NCBI GenBank assembly: GCA_947492825.1
Contig: CANLNT010000002.1
Coordinates: forward strand, 132,501-196,500
Source: an uncultured Paracoccaceae bacterium
GTDB taxonomy: Bacteria > Pseudomonadota > Alphaproteobacteria > Rhodobacterales > Rhodobacteraceae
Length of the DNA: 64,000 nucleotides
Reading direction: 5' to 3'
Shown: positions 48,939 to 63,511 of the stretch, in pieces
Numbering within the stretch: the stretch's first letter is position 1
Layout of the letters: every line of letters starts with the position of its first letter
The notes under the pieces: generated by a model
What the model was told of the DNA's origin: nothing
The model's database searches: none
The model's input: the letters and a program-made list of their open reading frames with translations, nothing else
Position numbers and translations under genes: made by a program

Positions 48939-49565
48939 ATGCGTATCCTTCCCGGCGTCATCGCCATGGCCATTATCGTGGTCGCTTCGAATATTCTTGT
49001 TCAATTTCTGATCCTTGACGGATTGCTGACCTGGGGGGCGTTTACCTATCCGCTGGCCTTCCTTGTGACCGACATCATGAACCGTGTTTACGGCGCGTCG
49101 GAGGCAAGAAAGGTAGTCTTTTCAGGGCTTTGCGTGGGGATTGTTTGTTCTTTGATCGGAAGTCAGATCATGCTGGAGTTCGGGCCTGCGGTTGCAATCC
49201 GGATTGCGATTGCCTCTGCCAGTGCGTTTCTGATCGCGCAACTGCTTGATATTGCAGTATTTAACCGGCTCCGCGAAGGGTCTTGGTGGACCGCGCCGCT
49301 GGGCTCGACCTTGGTCAGTTCTACAGTGGACACGTTAATCTTTTTCTCTATCGCGTTTGCGGCGATCTTCAATGGTTTCAATGCCTTAGCGGACGAACAA
49401 ATCGTCTGGGCGCAGGAGTTGGTGCCGTTTCTTAACCAAGGTCCGCTGGTTCCGCTGTGGGTTTCGCTGGCCGTGGCCGACTGGGGCGTGAAGTTAACCA
49501 TTGCGCTGCTGGCACTGGTGCCATTCCGCCTGATTGTTGGGCGGATGCTGCAACGGACGGCCTAA
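48939..49565 (+). CDS. yhhQ: Queuosine precursor transporter (YhhQ/QPTR family)
   Basis: 208 residues from ATG 48939. Six hydrophobic segments and the VUT-family markers ASNILVQFLI, TYPLAFLVTDIMNRVYG near residue 42 and RLREGSWWTAPLGSTLVSSTVDT near 125. Imports queuine or preQ precursors for tRNA modification. A second possible in-frame upstream extension is not family-like. No queuosine genes are adjacent. Confidence 0.9.
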   Translation: MRILPGVIAMAIIVVASNILVQFLILDGLLTWGAFTYPLAFLVTDIMNRVYGASEARKVVFSGLCVGIVCSLIGSQIMLEFGPAVAIRIAIASASAFLIAQLLDIAVFNRLREGSWWTAPLGSTLVSSTVDTLIFFSIAFAAIFNGFNALADEQIVWAQELVPFLNQGPLVPLWVSLAVADWGVKLTIALLALVPFRLIVGRMLQRTA

Positions 49566-49652
49566 GCACGAAAAGTTGTGGAAATTAATTTGACATATAC
49601 CAAATCTGTGCGAACCTTCCTTTAGGCGAAACATTTGAAAGGAGGTGATCCA

Positions 49653-49709
49653 GTGCATCATGAAGTATTGGAGAAGGCAGTCGGGACAACTTGTGGGGGT
49701 CACACCTAG
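49653..49709 (+). CDS. Possible 18-residue peptide behind the ultra-strong Shine-Dalgarno
   Basis: GTG 49653 lies 7 bases after GGAGG, ideal spacing. It would encode MHHEVLEKAVGTTCGGHT, ending at TAG 49707-49709. An overlapping ATG frame (49660-49725, starting MKYWRRQSGQL) has 14-base spacing and is less favoured. Whether either is translated is unknown; the RNA structure may be the real product. Confidence 0.3.
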   Translation: MHHEVLEKAVGTTCGGHT

Positions 49710-49775
49710 GGCAGCCCCTAGCTGAGAAGACCACAAGGTGGAGATCCTAACCGACCCACCTCCGCAACTTTCAGG

Positions 49776-49810
49776 AAAGGGCCATCCCATCGCCGGGGTG
49801 GCCCTTTTTT
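49776..49810 (+). terminator. Intrinsic terminator of the candidate RNA
   Basis: A 13-base stem with one G-T pair, AAAGGGCCATCCC (49776-49788) with 49795-49807, loop ATCGCC, followed by six T. The strand and strength suit the upstream element. The remaining gap to arfB at 49954 shows nothing else that I recognise. Confidence 0.9.
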
Positions 49811-49953
49811 CATCTTTGCGGTGTCATGCGCGGGCGAAAGGGGCGCTGCGGCCCGAAATTGGGTTAAGGGTGCGCGCGGCCAAAATCGGGTATACAGAAC
49901 CTGCCAAGAAACCATGCACACCCCATACACAAACCATATGCACGAAAGTCTGA

Positions 49954-50367
49954 ATGCGCGTTAACGATCATATCGAGATTGCCGACTGGGAACTGACCGA
50001 AAGCTTTGTCCGCGCGTCCGGCCCCGGCGGGCAGAACGTGAACAAAGTGTCCACAGCAGTCGAATTGCGGTTCGAGGCAGAGCGGTCGCCGAACCTGCCC
50101 GACGCGGTGAAGCGGCGGCTGCGGCGGATCGCGGGGCAGAAATGGACGAAGGACGGGGCCGTGGTGATCTTTGTGCAAGAGACCCGGTCACAAGCCCGCA
50201 ACCGCGAGATCGCGATGGAGCGTTTGGCGGAGTTGATCCGCAAAGCGACCGAGGTGCCCAAACGGCGGCGTCCGACGAAGCCGACCTATGGGTCGGTCAA
50301 GCGGCGGTTGGAGGGAAAGAAGCACCGCGGGGCGGTGAAGGCATTGCGGGGGAAGGTGGAGGAGTAG
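49954..50367 (+). CDS. arfB: Alternative ribosome-rescue factor B (peptidyl-tRNA hydrolase)
   Basis: 137 residues with the catalytic GGQ at Gly25-Gly26-Gln27 in ASGPGGQNVNKVSTAVELRF. The long basic C-terminal tail (about 105-137, Lys/Arg-rich) threads into the empty mRNA channel of stalled ribosomes. It frees ribosomes lacking a stop codon, as backup to tmRNA. The end KVEE-stop runs into a GGAGTA minisatellite. The neighbouring structured RNA is also ribosome-related by sequence. Confidence 0.95.
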   Translation: MRVNDHIEIADWELTESFVRASGPGGQNVNKVSTAVELRFEAERSPNLPDAVKRRLRRIAGQKWTKDGAVVIFVQETRSQARNREIAMERLAELIRKATEVPKRRRPTKPTYGSVKRRLEGKKHRGAVKALRGKVEE

Positions 50368-50419
50368 GAGTAGGAGTAGGAGTAGGAGTAGGAGTAGGAG
50401 TAGGAGTAGGAGTAGGAGT
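50361..50419. repeat. GGAGTA minisatellite, 9.8 copies
   Basis: Nine perfect GGAGTA units (50361-50414) plus GGAGT. It starts inside the arfB stop region and ends exactly at the stop codon of the convergent SIR2 gene. On the plus strand each unit carries an in-frame TAG for arfB. It is slippage-prone and marks the boundary of the AT-richer segment. Confidence 0.95.
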
Positions 50420-52893
50420 CAAATTGACGCTATCAGAACATTGCAACGCAAAATATTTCCTTTCAATACAGCGACCTCGCCTCGCCTGCTCTTCTCCAGT
50501 CGGTCCCTTCCCTCAATGGAAGAGCCTAATTTCGTCAAAAAATTCTTAAGGTGCGCGACTTCTTCCCGTGTCAACTCATCTAGGCGAGCTTCTAAAAACT
50601 CCTCAAGTAACGGCACTGATCGCATTGAATAGATCGCCAATGATTCTCGAAGAGATAGATTGTCTATTAGGTCTTGAATTGCCTCTTTGACATCTGATGG
50701 GCGATAAGGACGATCAAGTTTCGCTGCCATTTTCAAGCGGAGTCTGGCCCGTTGATCCTTTATCTGGTGCTTCAGGTAGTCCACTCCTTTTCGCTCTGCG
50801 ATTGCCAGCGCATTTGCAATAAAACCATCCGCGCGATCCAAGTTATCAAGCTCGATCTCTGACATCGCATATTGCAGCCAAAACTGATCACTTTTACGGA
50901 TGGGTCCTACAGCTCCGAGCCGGGAGTATACCGAAGATATTGCCAGTTTCGCATCATCTCTGTCTCGGAGCAGCGTCGACAAATAGCCAAACCTCATCAG
51001 TTCCTTTAGATTCTGCTTCGCATCCCAACCAAGACTCCTATCCGTACTGCTATAGGCGGTTTGACGGACAATTTCACTATAGACATCAACAATCTCACTA
51101 GTTTCAAATTCGTACTTGTTCAGAATAAAATCCGAAAGACTATTCGAGGAAAAATTGTACCATCCTTCAGCACCACGCCCCATGAAACTCAACACGCCAG
51201 ACGACCGTATCTTTTGTTCGAGGTCAAATTCGTCGAGATTCAACCAAGCGACAATACGGCTCCATTGTACGTGTTGGCTACACAGACCGTTAATTAGAAT
51301 TGCGATAAACGCTTGGCGATGGCCAGGGTTCTGTCCGAGGAAAAAATTGACAATTTGATCAATACGGTTCGCCAAGCTCGAGTTGCTGAACATCGAAACT
51401 AGAATCGATCTATTTTCGGCAGCGCATCTCTGCTTGAGATGATCCATGCGGTCTTCCGCTGTTGTCTTAAGTGCCTCTTCCCAAAAGCCCCAACTCTCGA
51501 GAAAACTGTCCCATCTAACAAGCTCTTCTACCGATAGCTGGTCCAAAGAAACTGTAGAGACAGAACCGCCAACCGAATCCGGGACGGATTTCATAACAAA
51601 TTCATCATCAGAGTTTGTTGCGCTCAGAATAAGTACAGATTCTCCGGTTAACTTAGATCCGATATACTCCGCGACTCTTCGGTGCCTCACAAAATCATCG
51701 ACAATAAAGCACTTTCTCCCCGGCCGCGACATCGACAAGTCAATCTCACCAAATATCCCCTCAACCGTAGATTCGACTCTGTAAACATCATAACCATCCA
51801 CAGCAAAGCGACAGCTGAGTTGTCTCAAGAATATCGATTTCCCATTCCCGAGATCAGATGTCACAAGAAAACGATTGCGTCCTGTCGAAACCGCATTGAT
51901 AATGCGTTCAGCCTTTTCGGATCGGTCAACGCAATACTTTTGCTCCTCGTCAGGGTTCTGAAGCTGACGGACATATAGATCCGGGTCGAATTTACCGGTC
52001 AGCAGTAGTTTCTCAACGTCCGCTCGGGCGGTTTCGGCTAAACTGATATTTGTACTTTCATGTCCCAAATATTTAGGAGAGACGGCACTAAATGATAAAT
52101 CTCCTACCGATCTAAGCTTATCTATTTGCTCAACAAGACCATCTACACCTATCGGATAAAGAGAGCCGAATTTCTTTAGCCTCGCATCTTCAACTGGGCT
52201 TGTGTCTGGCCGGTTTATGATAACCGAGCGATTTCGCAATGCCCCGACTCTGAACACGCTCTTCGCAATCGCTAAGTCGGACAATGAGTATCCAACAAAA
52301 AATACACGAGTGGCGTCGTGGATCTCGTTTTCCAGCATCGAAAACAACTCTCTATTGCTTTGCTGGAGTTCAATGTAACTTCTCTCGCTAAGCACAAGGC
52401 CAGGATCTGTCATCCCTTCGTTAATATCTGCGGCCCTTCCATGGAGGTAGACAATAGATTTCTTACTCGTTGCTGTGCCAGTTTTCATTGTTGCGATTGA
52501 GACTGGGTTATATTGACTTGGGTTCGGACCACGCTCAAATAGATCGTCGTAGTTTGTTGTAAAAACTGCCCGCCACGGCAATGAGATAAGCGCTTGTTGC
52601 GTTGCATTGGGCTTGCAAATCGTAAGCCGCCTAGCCAATAGAGATCGAAGTTCTGGAGCGAGCCGTGGATCATCTTCGATATAGTCGCCTAGTGCTGGAA
52701 GTGTCGATTGCTCATCTGGAGGCAAGTCAGCAAGTTCGCGAAGCAGCTTCTCCAGTTCCCCAGTACTAGGAATGCTCTCTCCTTCGCTGTTCTCACCTCC
52801 TATTGAAAATCCGGCCCCAACAAAGCATACTGCGTTTCCAGAGAGAATATGTCTAATGCTCTCGTCGAGTTTTTCGTTTTCAATTTGATCCAT
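50419..52893 (-). CDS. SIR2-like NADase fused to P-loop (STAND-like) NTPase
   Basis: 824 residues. N-terminal SIR2-like domain (15-240): GAGFS 26-30, TTNYD 112-116 (Asn 114) and YLHG 149-152 (His 151), FVGYSLSD 199-206. A P-loop region follows: SDLGNGKS (346-353, a degenerate Walker A without the first Gly) and CFIVDD (395-400, Walker B). The C-terminal third is helical, possibly TPR-like. This architecture belongs to anti-phage NADases that deplete NAD+ when triggered. Hand count on one 60-base line gives 45% GC, against 67% for one in pncB, so recent transfer is likely. No start ambiguity (AAAGAGA upstream). Confidence 0.82.
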   Translation of the reverse strand: MDQIENEKLDESIRHILSGNAVCFVGAGFSIGGENSEGESIPSTGELEKLLRELADLPPDEQSTLPALGDYIEDDPRLAPELRSLLARRLTICKPNATQQALISLPWRAVFTTNYDDLFERGPNPSQYNPVSIATMKTGTATSKKSIVYLHGRAADINEGMTDPGLVLSERSYIELQQSNRELFSMLENEIHDATRVFFVGYSLSDLAIAKSVFRVGALRNRSVIINRPDTSPVEDARLKKFGSLYPIGVDGLVEQIDKLRSVGDLSFSAVSPKYLGHESTNISLAETARADVEKLLLTGKFDPDLYVRQLQNPDEEQKYCVDRSEKAERIINAVSTGRNRFLVTSDLGNGKSIFLRQLSCRFAVDGYDVYRVESTVEGIFGEIDLSMSRPGRKCFIVDDFVRHRRVAEYIGSKLTGESVLILSATNSDDEFVMKSVPDSVGGSVSTVSLDQLSVEELVRWDSFLESWGFWEEALKTTAEDRMDHLKQRCAAENRSILVSMFSNSSLANRIDQIVNFFLGQNPGHRQAFIAILINGLCSQHVQWSRIVAWLNLDEFDLEQKIRSSGVLSFMGRGAEGWYNFSSNSLSDFILNKYEFETSEIVDVYSEIVRQTAYSSTDRSLGWDAKQNLKELMRFGYLSTLLRDRDDAKLAISSVYSRLGAVGPIRKSDQFWLQYAMSEIELDNLDRADGFIANALAIAERKGVDYLKHQIKDQRARLRLKMAAKLDRPYRPSDVKEAIQDLIDNLSLRESLAIYSMRSVPLLEEFLEARLDELTREEVAHLKNFLTKLGSSIEGRDRLEKSRRGEVAVLKGNILRCNVLIASI

Positions 52894-52923
52894 TGTTCTC
52901 TTTGTTGTTGCCCAATGCGATTG

Positions 52924-54216
52924 TCAAACCAAGATTTCAAATTCGGCCTGATCACCGACACCGAACACTCGCTTGTAACGAGTGATCTCGTCAAGTGGCC
53001 CCATCGCTTTATTCGAGTTGTCGCTCAGCTTGACCGTCGCGTTGCCATTGGCCGAGACGGCTTTGCAGACCAGTGAGAAGGGGGCGAGGCTGTCACCGTC
53101 AGTCAGACCTTTGAAGTCGTTGGTCAGCATGGTGCCCCAGCCGAAGGACACGCGGACTCGGCCCACAAACTGTGCGTGCAGGGACAGGATTTTGTCGACG
53201 TCCAAGCCGTCGGAGAAGATGATGAGCTTTTGGCGGGGGTCTTCGCCGCGGGATGTCCACCACGCGATTGCGGCTTCGGCACCGGCGGCGGGGTCACCTG
53301 AATCGATGCGGATGCCGGTCCAGCCGGCGAGCCAATCCGGCGCACGCTCCAAGAACCCCGGTGTGCCGTAGGTGTCGGGCAGGATGATGCGCAGGTTGCC
53401 GTCGTGTTCGGCCTGCCAGTCGGACAGCACGTCGTAGGGGGCCTGGGCCAGTGCCGCGTCGCCCTGCGCCAAGGCGGCATAGACCATGGGGAGTTCGTGG
53501 GCGTTGGTTCCAATCGCCTCCATGTCGCGGTTCTTGGCGATCAGGCAGTTGGAGGTGCCCGCGAAGGCGCTGCCCAGACCTTCGGACATGGCCTGCACGC
53601 ACCAGTCCTGCCAGAGGAAGGAGTGGCGGCGGCGGGTGCCGAAGTCCGCGATGCGCAGGTCGGGGATGGTTTGCAGTTGCTCGACCTTTTCCCAGAGTTT
53701 GGTCATGGCGCGGGCGTAGAGGACTTGCAGTTCAAACCGGCCCATGGCGCCGAGGACGGCGCGGCCGCGCAGTTCCATCAGCACAGCGAGAGCGGGGATT
53801 TCCCAAAGCATGACCTCGGGCCATGATCCTTCGAAGGTGAGTTCGTATTGGTCACCAACGCGTTCAAGGTGGTAGGGCGGCAGGCGGAGGTTTTCAAACC
53901 AGTCCATGAATTCGGGCGAGAACATCTGACGTTTGCCGTAGAAGGTGTTGCCGCGCATCCATGTGCTTTCGCCGCGGCGGAGCGAGAGGGAGCGGATGTG
54001 GTCGAGTTGCTCGCGCAGCTCGCCCTCGTCGATGAGGGTGGCGAGCGGGATATGGGTGGCACGGTTGATGAGGGAGAAGGTGACGGCCGTGTCGGGTTTG
54101 TTGCGGAACACCGATTGGCACATCAGCAGTTTGTAGAAATCGGTGTCGATAAGGGAACGGACGATCGGGTCGATCTTCCATTTGTGGTTCCAGACGCGGG
54201 TGGCGATGTCGACCAT
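52924..54216 (-). CDS. pncB: Nicotinate phosphoribosyltransferase
   Basis: 430-residue enzyme forming nicotinate mononucleotide from nicotinate and PRPP (Preiss-Handler NAD+ salvage). Family motifs: SLIDTDFYKLLMCQSVF, IADFGTRRRHSF near 190, TNAHELPMVYAAL near 236 (active-site His) and SDGLDVDKIL. Good Shine-Dalgarno (GGAGGACCAG). It lies 72 bases after the TIR-like stop and 30 bases before the SIR2 start, same strand. pncA sits 8.7 kb away on the other strand. Confidence 0.96.
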   Translation of the reverse strand: MVDIATRVWNHKWKIDPIVRSLIDTDFYKLLMCQSVFRNKPDTAVTFSLINRATHIPLATLIDEGELREQLDHIRSLSLRRGESTWMRGNTFYGKRQMFSPEFMDWFENLRLPPYHLERVGDQYELTFEGSWPEVMLWEIPALAVLMELRGRAVLGAMGRFELQVLYARAMTKLWEKVEQLQTIPDLRIADFGTRRRHSFLWQDWCVQAMSEGLGSAFAGTSNCLIAKNRDMEAIGTNAHELPMVYAALAQGDAALAQAPYDVLSDWQAEHDGNLRIILPDTYGTPGFLERAPDWLAGWTGIRIDSGDPAAGAEAAIAWWTSRGEDPRQKLIIFSDGLDVDKILSLHAQFVGRVRVSFGWGTMLTNDFKGLTDGDSLAPFSLVCKAVSANGNATVKLSDNSNKAMGPLDEITRYKRVFGVGDQAEFEILV

Positions 54217-54288
54217 TCTGGTCCTCCGTTGGCTTGGAGGCGGTTAGAGCAATTTGGGCTTATGGTGTCCAGTGAGGGTGTTGTTGGG

Positions 54289-55524
54289 CTAGTCCGTAAG
54301 ATTCAGCGCGGCGAGGTTGGGTGTCTGGCCAGCGGCATTATACAGCGCATTGATGAACATACGGGTCATCTGGCGTGGCGTAACGCTGACTGGATCAACG
54401 ATAGTTGACGTGACTGAGTCGTCGAAGAACGGTTTGTCCTCATAAAAGTAGCTGTCGCCGACCCTGAGGTGGCACCCTTTCAAGCTGGATGCTGTGAGTT
54501 GCAGGTCCATTGGGCCGATAATCAGAGACTTTGCCGATTGAACGACCTTTTGGATGTTGCGGGGCAGTTCGTCGCTGAGGCGCGCGGGAACAAACAGAAC
54601 ACGCTCGAGCCCCTCATGCGTCTGGATCTGTTCGAAGAAACCATCGTCAAAACACCAGATTTCGCGGCTTTCAAAGAGCTGCGTTGCCGAGCATATATCC
54701 CGGGTGCCGAAGTTGACACCAAAGCTAATCCCGCCCCAAGAGTTCACGTCGTTATAGTGGCCGTCCGTCCTACCAAAGGGGCCAAGATCTGAAACACGCT
54801 CTTTACACTCCGAACGCGTCAGGCGCTCTTGTGCAGATTTCGGCAAGATACGAAGCGACACCAGCAGTTCTTCGCTGCAGACAAATTGCTTTGTTACGCG
54901 GGTGCAAAGCGGCTCCTGCCTCTGCCAAAATGCGGATGGAACAAACGTTGGTTTTGCAGGCTCAAAGTTGGCACTTGGAGGGGAGCCGACTGCGTTTTCA
55001 GCCTGTGCAGATTTGAGGTATTGCCGCAGGATTTCCACAAAATCCGCGGTCAGCCTATTTCTGACAGCCTTCAGCTCTTCCTTTGTTAGTTCGGCAGTCG
55101 CATTATACTGGACGGGGTGCGAACGGTCGCGAAGATCGAAGGGCAGAGCCTCTGGTCGGCCATCGGCCGTATTCATTACGTTCAACACGCATCCGTACCC
55201 ATGCTTGCCAAGTGCATAACCAAGCTCAATCGCGACGTTGCTATTGATGTGCGGCTTACCGTCAGTCCCTTTGGCGACCAGCGTGACATCGCAGACTACA
55301 ACTGATGACATATCTATTTTTTCGAGAATAACCTGCGCAATCGGGACGGCACCTTTCACACCTTTTGTGTCATGGTCGAGGTGCAGATCGTTGCTGCTGC
55401 GGATGGCGTCCACAATCTCTGGGTCAGACTTCAAAGCTTTCAGCGCGTCGCGCAACGCATCCCGGACGAAGTATCTGTTCAAATGCGCGGGAGAGTCGGA
55501 CTGCCATGAGTAGAAAATCTTCAA
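54289..55524 (-). CDS. TIR-like NADase-type protein with unknown C-terminal domain
   Basis: 411 residues, apparent start TTG 55524; no in-frame ATG lies just upstream. Residues 1-165 follow a TIR-like pattern: MKIFYSWQSDSP (1-12), SSVVVCDVT (73-81) and NSNVAIELGYALGKHGY (94-110), where Glu 100 sits at the NADase catalytic Glu position. Residues about 180-411 form a domain I do not recognise, with several cysteines. TIR-like domains cleave or cyclise NAD+ in bacterial defence. One sampled 60-base line has 53% GC, between the flanks. Confidence 0.7.
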   Translation of the reverse strand: MKIFYSWQSDSPAHLNRYFVRDALRDALKALKSDPEIVDAIRSSNDLHLDHDTKGVKGAVPIAQVILEKIDMSSVVVCDVTLVAKGTDGKPHINSNVAIELGYALGKHGYGCVLNVMNTADGRPEALPFDLRDRSHPVQYNATAELTKEELKAVRNRLTADFVEILRQYLKSAQAENAVGSPPSANFEPAKPTFVPSAFWQRQEPLCTRVTKQFVCSEELLVSLRILPKSAQERLTRSECKERVSDLGPFGRTDGHYNDVNSWGGISFGVNFGTRDICSATQLFESREIWCFDDGFFEQIQTHEGLERVLFVPARLSDELPRNIQKVVQSAKSLIIGPMDLQLTASSLKGCHLRVGDSYFYEDKPFFDDSVTSTIVDPVSVTPRQMTRMFINALYNAAGQTPNLAALNLTD

Positions 55525-62894: not shown

Positions 62895-62917
62895 CCCTAG
62901 ACCCAAAGGAGAATGCC

Positions 62918-63511
62918 ATGTCTGACGCTTTGATCGTGATTGATGTCCAGAATGACTTTTGCCCCGGCGGTGCGCTCGCCGTGGCGGGCGGCGACGAAAT
63001 TGTCGATGGGATCAATGCCCTGATGGCAGATTTCGACAGTGTGATCCTGACGCAGGATTGGCACCCGGCGGGGCATTCGTCATTTGCGTCGTCACATCCG
63101 GGTGCAGCACCTATGAGCGTCACCGAGATGCCGTACGGGCCGCAGGTGTTGTGGCCGGATCATTGCATCCAAGGGACAACAGGTGCCGCGTTTCACGCGG
63201 GCCTGCGTACCGATGGTGATCTGATCATTCGCAAGGGGTTCAACCCCGCGATTGATAGCTATTCGGCATTTTTCGAGAATGACCACTCTACCCCGACGGG
63301 GCTGGAAGGGTATCTGCGCACACGTGGGATTTCGCGGCTGACGATGGTTGGCCTCGCGCTGGATTTCTGCGTGAATTATTCGGCTGAGGATGCGGCCAAG
63401 CTGGGGTTCGACGTCACGGTGCGGCGCGATCTGACGCGGGCGATTGATTTTGATGGCTCGCTTGCGGCTGCGCTGAAAGGGATGGCGGACGCGGGCGTCA
63501 CCGTCGCGTGA
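62918..63511 (+). CDS. pncA: Nicotinamidase
   Basis: 197 residues. Catalytic triad visible as Asp 9 (VIDVQNDF), Lys 106 (IIRKGF) and Cys 151 (LALDFCVNY); metal ligands Asp 47, His 49 and His 53 in TQDWHPAGH. Converts nicotinamide to nicotinate, feeding PncB. AAAGGAG precedes ATG 62918. Its stop overlaps the next gene's GTG by four bases. Confidence 0.96.
   Translation: MSDALIVIDVQNDFCPGGALAVAGGDEIVDGINALMADFDSVILTQDWHPAGHSSFASSHPGAAPMSVTEMPYGPQVLWPDHCIQGTTGAAFHAGLRTDGDLIIRKGFNPAIDSYSAFFENDHSTPTGLEGYLRTRGISRLTMVGLALDFCVNYSAEDAAKLGFDVTVRRDLTRAIDFDGSLAAALKGMADAGVTVA

Follow-up and report, generated by a model that had tools for sequence, protein, structure and literature searches.

The question raised by this locus is whether a gene of NAD+ salvage, standing between two genes for putative NAD+-destroying proteins, belongs with them to a single defence module or merely keeps their company by accident. 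The window, i.e., the whole stretch of 64,000 nucleotides from an uncultured Paracoccaceae bacterium that was analysed (G000:C2:132501-196500, G000 being the genome that holds it), contains on its minus strand a TIR-like gene (54289-55524, 411 aa, TTG start), the nicotinate phosphoribosyltransferase gene pncB (52924-54216, 430 aa) and a SIR2/P-loop gene of the SIR2-STAND-like type (50419-52893, 824 aa), followed by the convergent plus-strand gene arfB (49954-50367; NCBIfam PRK09256.1, 190 bits for a cut-off of 100). A preliminary description had placed the three minus-strand open reading frames (ORFs) at these coordinates, separated by 72 and 30 bases, and had pointed to Asn114 and His151 in the SIR2 protein and to Glu100 (NVAIELGYALG) in the TIR-like protein, all of which were found as described (Asn114 within TTNYDD, His151 within YLHG); it hesitated between a module in which the destruction of NAD+ is coupled to its restoration and a resident pncB around which defence genes were inserted. 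The reading favoured here, to which we give a probability of about 0.88, is that of a resident pncB with two independent defence insertions, one upstream of it and the other in a pncB-arfB socket with recombination-swapped cargo. According to this reading, two unrelated putative defence genes would have landed separately beside a resident single-copy NAD+ salvage gene; the convergent gap, with pncB as its left and arfB as its right border, would serve the family as a small socket whose contents can be exchanged, frequently amount to one gene and are in large part anti-phage; to judge from divergence patterns, homologous recombination in the conserved genes on either side would bring about the exchange; and the proximity of PncB would be positional only, with no part in the defence mechanism.

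The product of pncB matches NAPRTase (145 bits) and, above their cut-offs, the NCBIfam models PRK05321.1 and TIGR01514. The gene was found in 270 of the 295 family genomes searched and occurs in a single copy in G000, which eliminates a second pncB as a dedicated restorer. Loci of pncB, with flanks of about 5 kb that are in some cases cut by contig ends, were fetched for the best-ranked of the 270 matched genomes, first 80 and then 60 more; pncA lies near pncB in 66 of the 80 (one per genus) and in 48 of the 60. Among 394 family genomes, nearly all from different genera, relatives of the TIR-like protein occur in six, G000 included, and relatives of the SIR2 protein in 14, including G000 and G001, a second strain of the same species; G000 alone holds both. 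No pncB was found in the flanks of 13 fetched loci of such relatives from other genera (5 TIR, 8 SIR2), and a tblastn search (1e-5) found no relative of either window protein in the 80 + 60 pncB loci, although it missed a different SIR2_2 protein that adjoins pncB in the fetched locus L078. SIR2_2 genes occupy 95 places in 68 of the 295 genomes; 53 of them (33 genomes) could be placed relative to pncB, by comparing positions by eye, and only two, those of the window and of L078, lie beside it, so pncB shows no particular attraction for genes of the NADase type. Moreover, the PADLOC dCTP-deaminase gene, a family picked after an example had been seen in the gap, is present in seven of the 295 genomes; it abuts pncB in three (G289, G023, G041) and lies elsewhere in two, the place of pncB not being listed in the remaining two. 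Since this amounts to 3/7 at pncB versus 2/53 for SIR2, the NAD+ link looks incidental.

A functional three-gene module, in which the TIR and SIR2 NADases deplete NAD+ upon infection and PncB restores it in the survivors, is for these reasons highly improbable. The shared strand and the short gaps are what such a module would present, and in genome G252 a TIR relative shares a same-strand block with a SIR2 gene, so two effector types can sit together; but the G252 block has no pncB match in its fetched flanks, 51 of the 53 placeable SIR2_2 genes are not beside pncB, and G001 possesses pncB without the TIR gene and with an interrupted SIR2 gene. The three-gene order, searched in the family genomes, occurs here only. 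Of the two initial proposals, it is the insertion around a resident pncB that holds, the latter being single-copy, usually close to pncA, and devoid of the TIR gene in G001. A literature search on nicotinate phosphoribosyltransferase together with TIR, phage defence and NAD+ gave, among the papers listed, nothing on the topic, most subscription papers lying outside the search.

Within the genus, the two insertions behave as separate events. Upstream of pncB, the TIR gene is confined to G000 among six genomes: in its place, G001 has 122 bp between an EamA gene and the point 36 bp upstream of pncB, and three congeners have a methyltransferase gene (identified by Pfam in one of the three). Downstream, a different pncB-arfB cargo was found in each of five species, consisting, besides the SIR2 gene, of genes for a GmrSD-type protein, a nucleotidyltransferase with a 2TM-like protein, and an AIPR protein (26.4 bits for a cut-off of 25), and of transport-type genes, identified by eye, that cover about 8 kb. 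Homology between species breaks off where pncB and arfB end or slightly within these genes, and the GC content of the window falls to 46-47% across 51-53 kb, versus 54-65% in the kilobases on either side. The SIR2 gene is present in both strains of the species; in G001 it is broken by about 2.5 kb comprising an IS1595-type transposase and a DUF3800 gene, an insertion flanked by an 8-base direct repeat.

Outside the genus, the same arrangement recurs widely. In addition to all six genus genomes, 38 of the 80 and 27 of the 60 fetched loci have a convergent arfB downstream of pncB. The gap measures 2556 bp in the window by coordinates and varies between 12 and 8,398 bp, with a median of 1.5 kb, in a set of 70 genomes composed of 42 intervals from the first set and the genus without G001, the window, and 27 intervals from the second set; it is shorter than 200 bp in eight of them and shorter than 4.5 kb in 69. 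Depending on the locus, the cargo identified by profiles is a SIR2 protein (PDC-S25, L078), DarT with DarG (L084), DndB by Pfam (L093), OLD (two ORFs, L097), a DndC-like protein (L103), MrcB_N (L107), PDC-S01 (L113), dCTP deaminase (L115, L129), a KAP protein (PDC-S20, L143), or an HTH protein with the IrrE-like RmrA (L154, 1.6e-16). No integrase was found among the part of the interval ORFs scanned with Pfam.

The defence content of the gap was compared with that of its surroundings, using 47 ORFs of at least 200 aa inside 43 intervals (46 from the gaps and the window SIR2 gene) and, as a control, 47 of the 255 ORFs outside the intervals of the same loci, a random list of 60 having been drawn and its first 47 members scanned; ORF calling was automatic, and the control may include ORFs that are not genes. 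At a PADLOC threshold of 1e-15, at least 11 and probably 12 of the 47 inside ORFs, distributed over 10 of the 43 intervals, gave a match, versus none of the 47 outside (Fisher p 0.0002, taking 12). The inside ORFs match 54 PADLOC models, and their members were assigned from individual scans: ten are certain (L030, L078, both ORFs of L084, one of L097, L103, L113, L115, L129 and L143), the eleventh is the second OLD piece, and the twelfth is that of L154, scanned as a slightly shorter ORF. The second set yielded eight PADLOC models with one member each, corresponding to three to five of 28 ORFs, the control covering the first set only.

The way in which the cargo moves can be approached through the divergence of the border genes. 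At fourfold sites, the window differs from three congeners by 0.17, 0.15 and 0.30 in arfB and by 0.23, 0.19 and 0.27 in pncB, versus 0.41-0.59 for the other genes of the stretch, queT excepted; between congeners, arfB and pncB stand at about half of the synonymous divergence of their neighbours. Slow evolution is not an inherent property of the two genes, since they reach 0.55 (arfB) and 0.52 (pncB) between the window and genome G005, where the rest of the stretch gives 0.48-0.60. Along pncB, third-position differences increase towards the cargo end. Between the two strains, the tract 50255-53094 (2.84 kb), both ends of which fall inside the border genes, is nearly identical, with four differences, three of them at the insertion sequence (IS) insertion point, for about 44 predicted from a background of 204 differences in 12,995 aligned bases outside 49400-53600. 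From these alignments we infer that the SIR2 cassette was recently exchanged by homologous recombination, before the IS reached G001. Another possible mode of entry is suggested by a single locus, L030:11968-12082, where the GmrSD cargo and the whole arfB are separated by a duplicated fragment of the arfB 3' end, as an integration at the 3' end of arfB might leave it. In the window, the stop codon of arfB is abutted by a short tandem repeat of the hexanucleotide type (50358-50418), longer in G001, and the alignment of the two strains contains gap columns at 50300-50399.

A GTA_TIM gene was found at or above its cut-off in all six genus genomes. The particles of gene transfer agents (GTAs) carry about 4 kb, a size that the gap lengths would fit. 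It is conceivable, if rather doubtful, that the socket is family-wide and that GTAs deliver anti-phage cassettes small enough for their particles, which recombination in the border genes then exchanges among strains and species; should this be true, a domesticated phage would be shuffling the immune repertoire.

Several observations weigh against the favoured reading of the socket or restrict its extent. About half of the pncB loci (42/80 and 33/60) have no convergent arfB interval within reach, so the socket is not universal, and its cargo also includes ordinary genes, e.g., for a transglycosylase (L100), a GH18 protein (L137), an M48 peptidase (L108) and a protein of beta-lactamase fold (L129). 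The neighbours that served as the PADLOC control are mostly core genes rather than genes of other accessory sites, so the enrichment indicates a defence-bearing accessory site, not a superiority over other accessory sites. The window SIR2 protein itself fails the 1e-15 threshold (best 1.2e-11), and the defence and NADase roles of both flanking proteins are predictions from sequence and model. Concerning recombination, which was examined in one genus, low divergence extends beyond the borders: queT, beside arfB, gives 0.42, 0.19 and 0.30 and is thus low in two species, and in the G004-G003 pair (L030-L031) two farther genes are also low (0.24, 0.27). Alternatively, the gap could be regarded as a neutral landing place between convergent genes, where insertions harm neither gene and where defence genes occur because accessory genes often are defence genes. 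The presence of ordinary genes in the gap agrees with this explanation, which is plausible without being the probable one, but the share of the dCTP-deaminase genes that lie at this one spot (three of seven) is far above that of a random position, even if this family was chosen post hoc, and the valley of divergence suggests repeated exchange.

Some of the cargo seems to be decaying, since the gap dCTP-deaminase genes at G289:C5:161867-163627 and G041:C3:108230-109785 carry internal stops or are in two pieces. The gap OLD gene at L097:3167-4961 is split into two overlapping ORFs and is possibly broken. In L037, a SIR2 relative is accompanied by an arfB-like match (30% identity), which was set aside as a different site, the gene being by eye another release-factor-like gene.

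Even without a functional module, the TIR insertion could have coupled the genes by accident, by replacing most of the pncB upstream region in such a way that one promoter reads TIR, pncB and perhaps SIR2, and expression of the effectors would then happen to raise NAD+ salvage. Only the 36 bp before pncB are common to G001 before the TIR insert starts, all three genes lie on the same strand, and no promoter was predicted in the gaps, in a scan performing at chance level for promoters and terminators alike (4 promoters found for 3.4 expected). This predicted cotranscription is nevertheless unlikely: the SIR2 gene of G001 follows pncB in the absence of TIR, and the cargo opposes the direction of pncB in several congeners and genera.

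Returning to the resident pncB with its two separate insertions, the inserted proteins may be considered individually. The SIR2 protein contains a SIR2_2 domain (Pfam, 48.5 bits for a cut-off of 24.5), a P-loop (GNGKS at 349) and an nSTAND_NTPase5 match of 31.9 bits, just below the cut-off of 34. Residues 4-723 of its 824 residues align with the PDB chain 9jap_A, a 'SIR2-like domain-containing protein' (E 1.2e-42), for which a literature search on the PDB code found no paper. The nearest named system by profile is Avs5, whose proteins are Sir2-STAND sensors active against phages, according to the available portion of PMC12931631, and with which the window protein shares a SIR2 domain followed by a putative STAND-type P-loop ATPase and a helical C-terminus; however, with 42 bits for an NCBIfam Avs5 cut-off of 1000, it is a distant relative and not Avs5 by that model. 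By analogy with these Avs5-type relatives and from its domains, the protein is probably a self-sufficient STAND sensor, which upon phage infection would let its SIR2 domain destroy NAD+. Relatives were also found in 25 plasmid records, all below 60% identity. A second SIR2_2 gene of G000, at G000:C1:209385-209702 (in a 592 aa open frame), is distant from pncB.

The TTG start of the TIR-like gene is backed by the alignment, in which eight relatives open with MKIFYSWQ at the same column (that of L158, whose ORF opens further upstream, having been placed there by hand), and Glu100 is invariant in the nine aligned sequences. No curated TIR profile is matched, CAP12-PCTIR_TIR reaching 13.9 bits for a cut-off of 24.7. 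A structure model of moderate confidence (mean pLDDT 72, pTM 0.48) finds its best PDB fold matches in TIR-STING chains (E 1.3e-5, with a low TM-score), closely followed by nucleoside deoxyribosyltransferases. The protein shares the conserved Glu motif with TIR-STING, the source of these best fold matches, and with the CAP12/Pycsar-type TIR effectors, but differs from them by its score below the Pfam cut-off, its low TM-scores and the absence of any cyclase gene noticed alongside. The modelled fold and the conserved Glu make it probably a strain-specific NADase-type effector. Relatives occur in 68 plasmid records, all below 60% identity; a prophage origin was discarded, no tblastn match being found in 50,697 phage records. 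The G252 block (L040:2464-10890, G252:C21), read by eye, consists of same-strand genes for HsdM, HsdS, a SIR2 protein, HsdR and a TIR-like protein, i.e., a type I restriction locus enclosing two NADase-type genes; the SIR2 domain was confirmed by Pfam, and a search of 198 genomes for this SIR2 protein gave distant relatives only.

As a defence-rich site, the pncB-arfB gap recalls the cDHS1 and cDHS2 sites of Pseudomonas aeruginosa, where two core genes border a variable, defence-rich content and where, in the accessible text of PMC10250203, 29% and 47% of the sites, respectively, lack a detectable mobility gene. It differs from cDHS1 (median 26 kb, in one species) by its median of 1.5 kb, its often single gene and its occurrence in many genera (PMC10250203, same portion). 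Similarly, the defence-island hotspots of Escherichia coli offer varied defence cargo at fixed chromosomal places, but the islands searched there, as far as the consulted part of PMC10121019 goes, comprise at least 10 genes on integrase-bearing mobile elements, whereas the scanned ORFs of the pncB-arfB gap gave no integrase match. Searches of the literature on Rhodobacteraceae hotspots, hotspots involving nicotinate phosphoribosyltransferase, defence hotspots, and gene transfer agents in connection with defence listed nothing on the pncB-arfB site, most subscription papers again falling outside the search.

Should the socket prove real throughout the family, inspecting the pncB-arfB gap of any new genome would be a cheap way of finding defence genes, including genes devoid of any model, such as the 367-aa low-GC cargo gene at L091:3898-5001, a candidate defence gene with no Pfam or PADLOC match. 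Short, integrase-poor cassettes with a recombination signature would also offer a test case for the movement of defence genes without mobile elements of their own. In addition, the locus is a warning that function should not be deduced from gene position, since the placing of an NAD+ enzyme between two genes of NADase type is here most likely a coincidence.

The window also contains the nicotinamidase gene pncA (62915-63511, plus strand; NCBIfam PRK11609.1, 201.9 bits for a cut-off of 174), about 8.7 kb from pncB; it was rejected as a part of the three-gene block, being the usual partner of pncB and lying outside the insertion. Among the remaining cargo, the genes at L130:7068-8123 and L206:4062-4946 resemble by eye ATPase/STAS-type regulators, that of L130 giving no PADLOC match at 0.001. 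The two-gene cargo at L230:4440-6163 consists, by eye, of a nucleotidyltransferase followed by a pentapeptide-like membrane protein.

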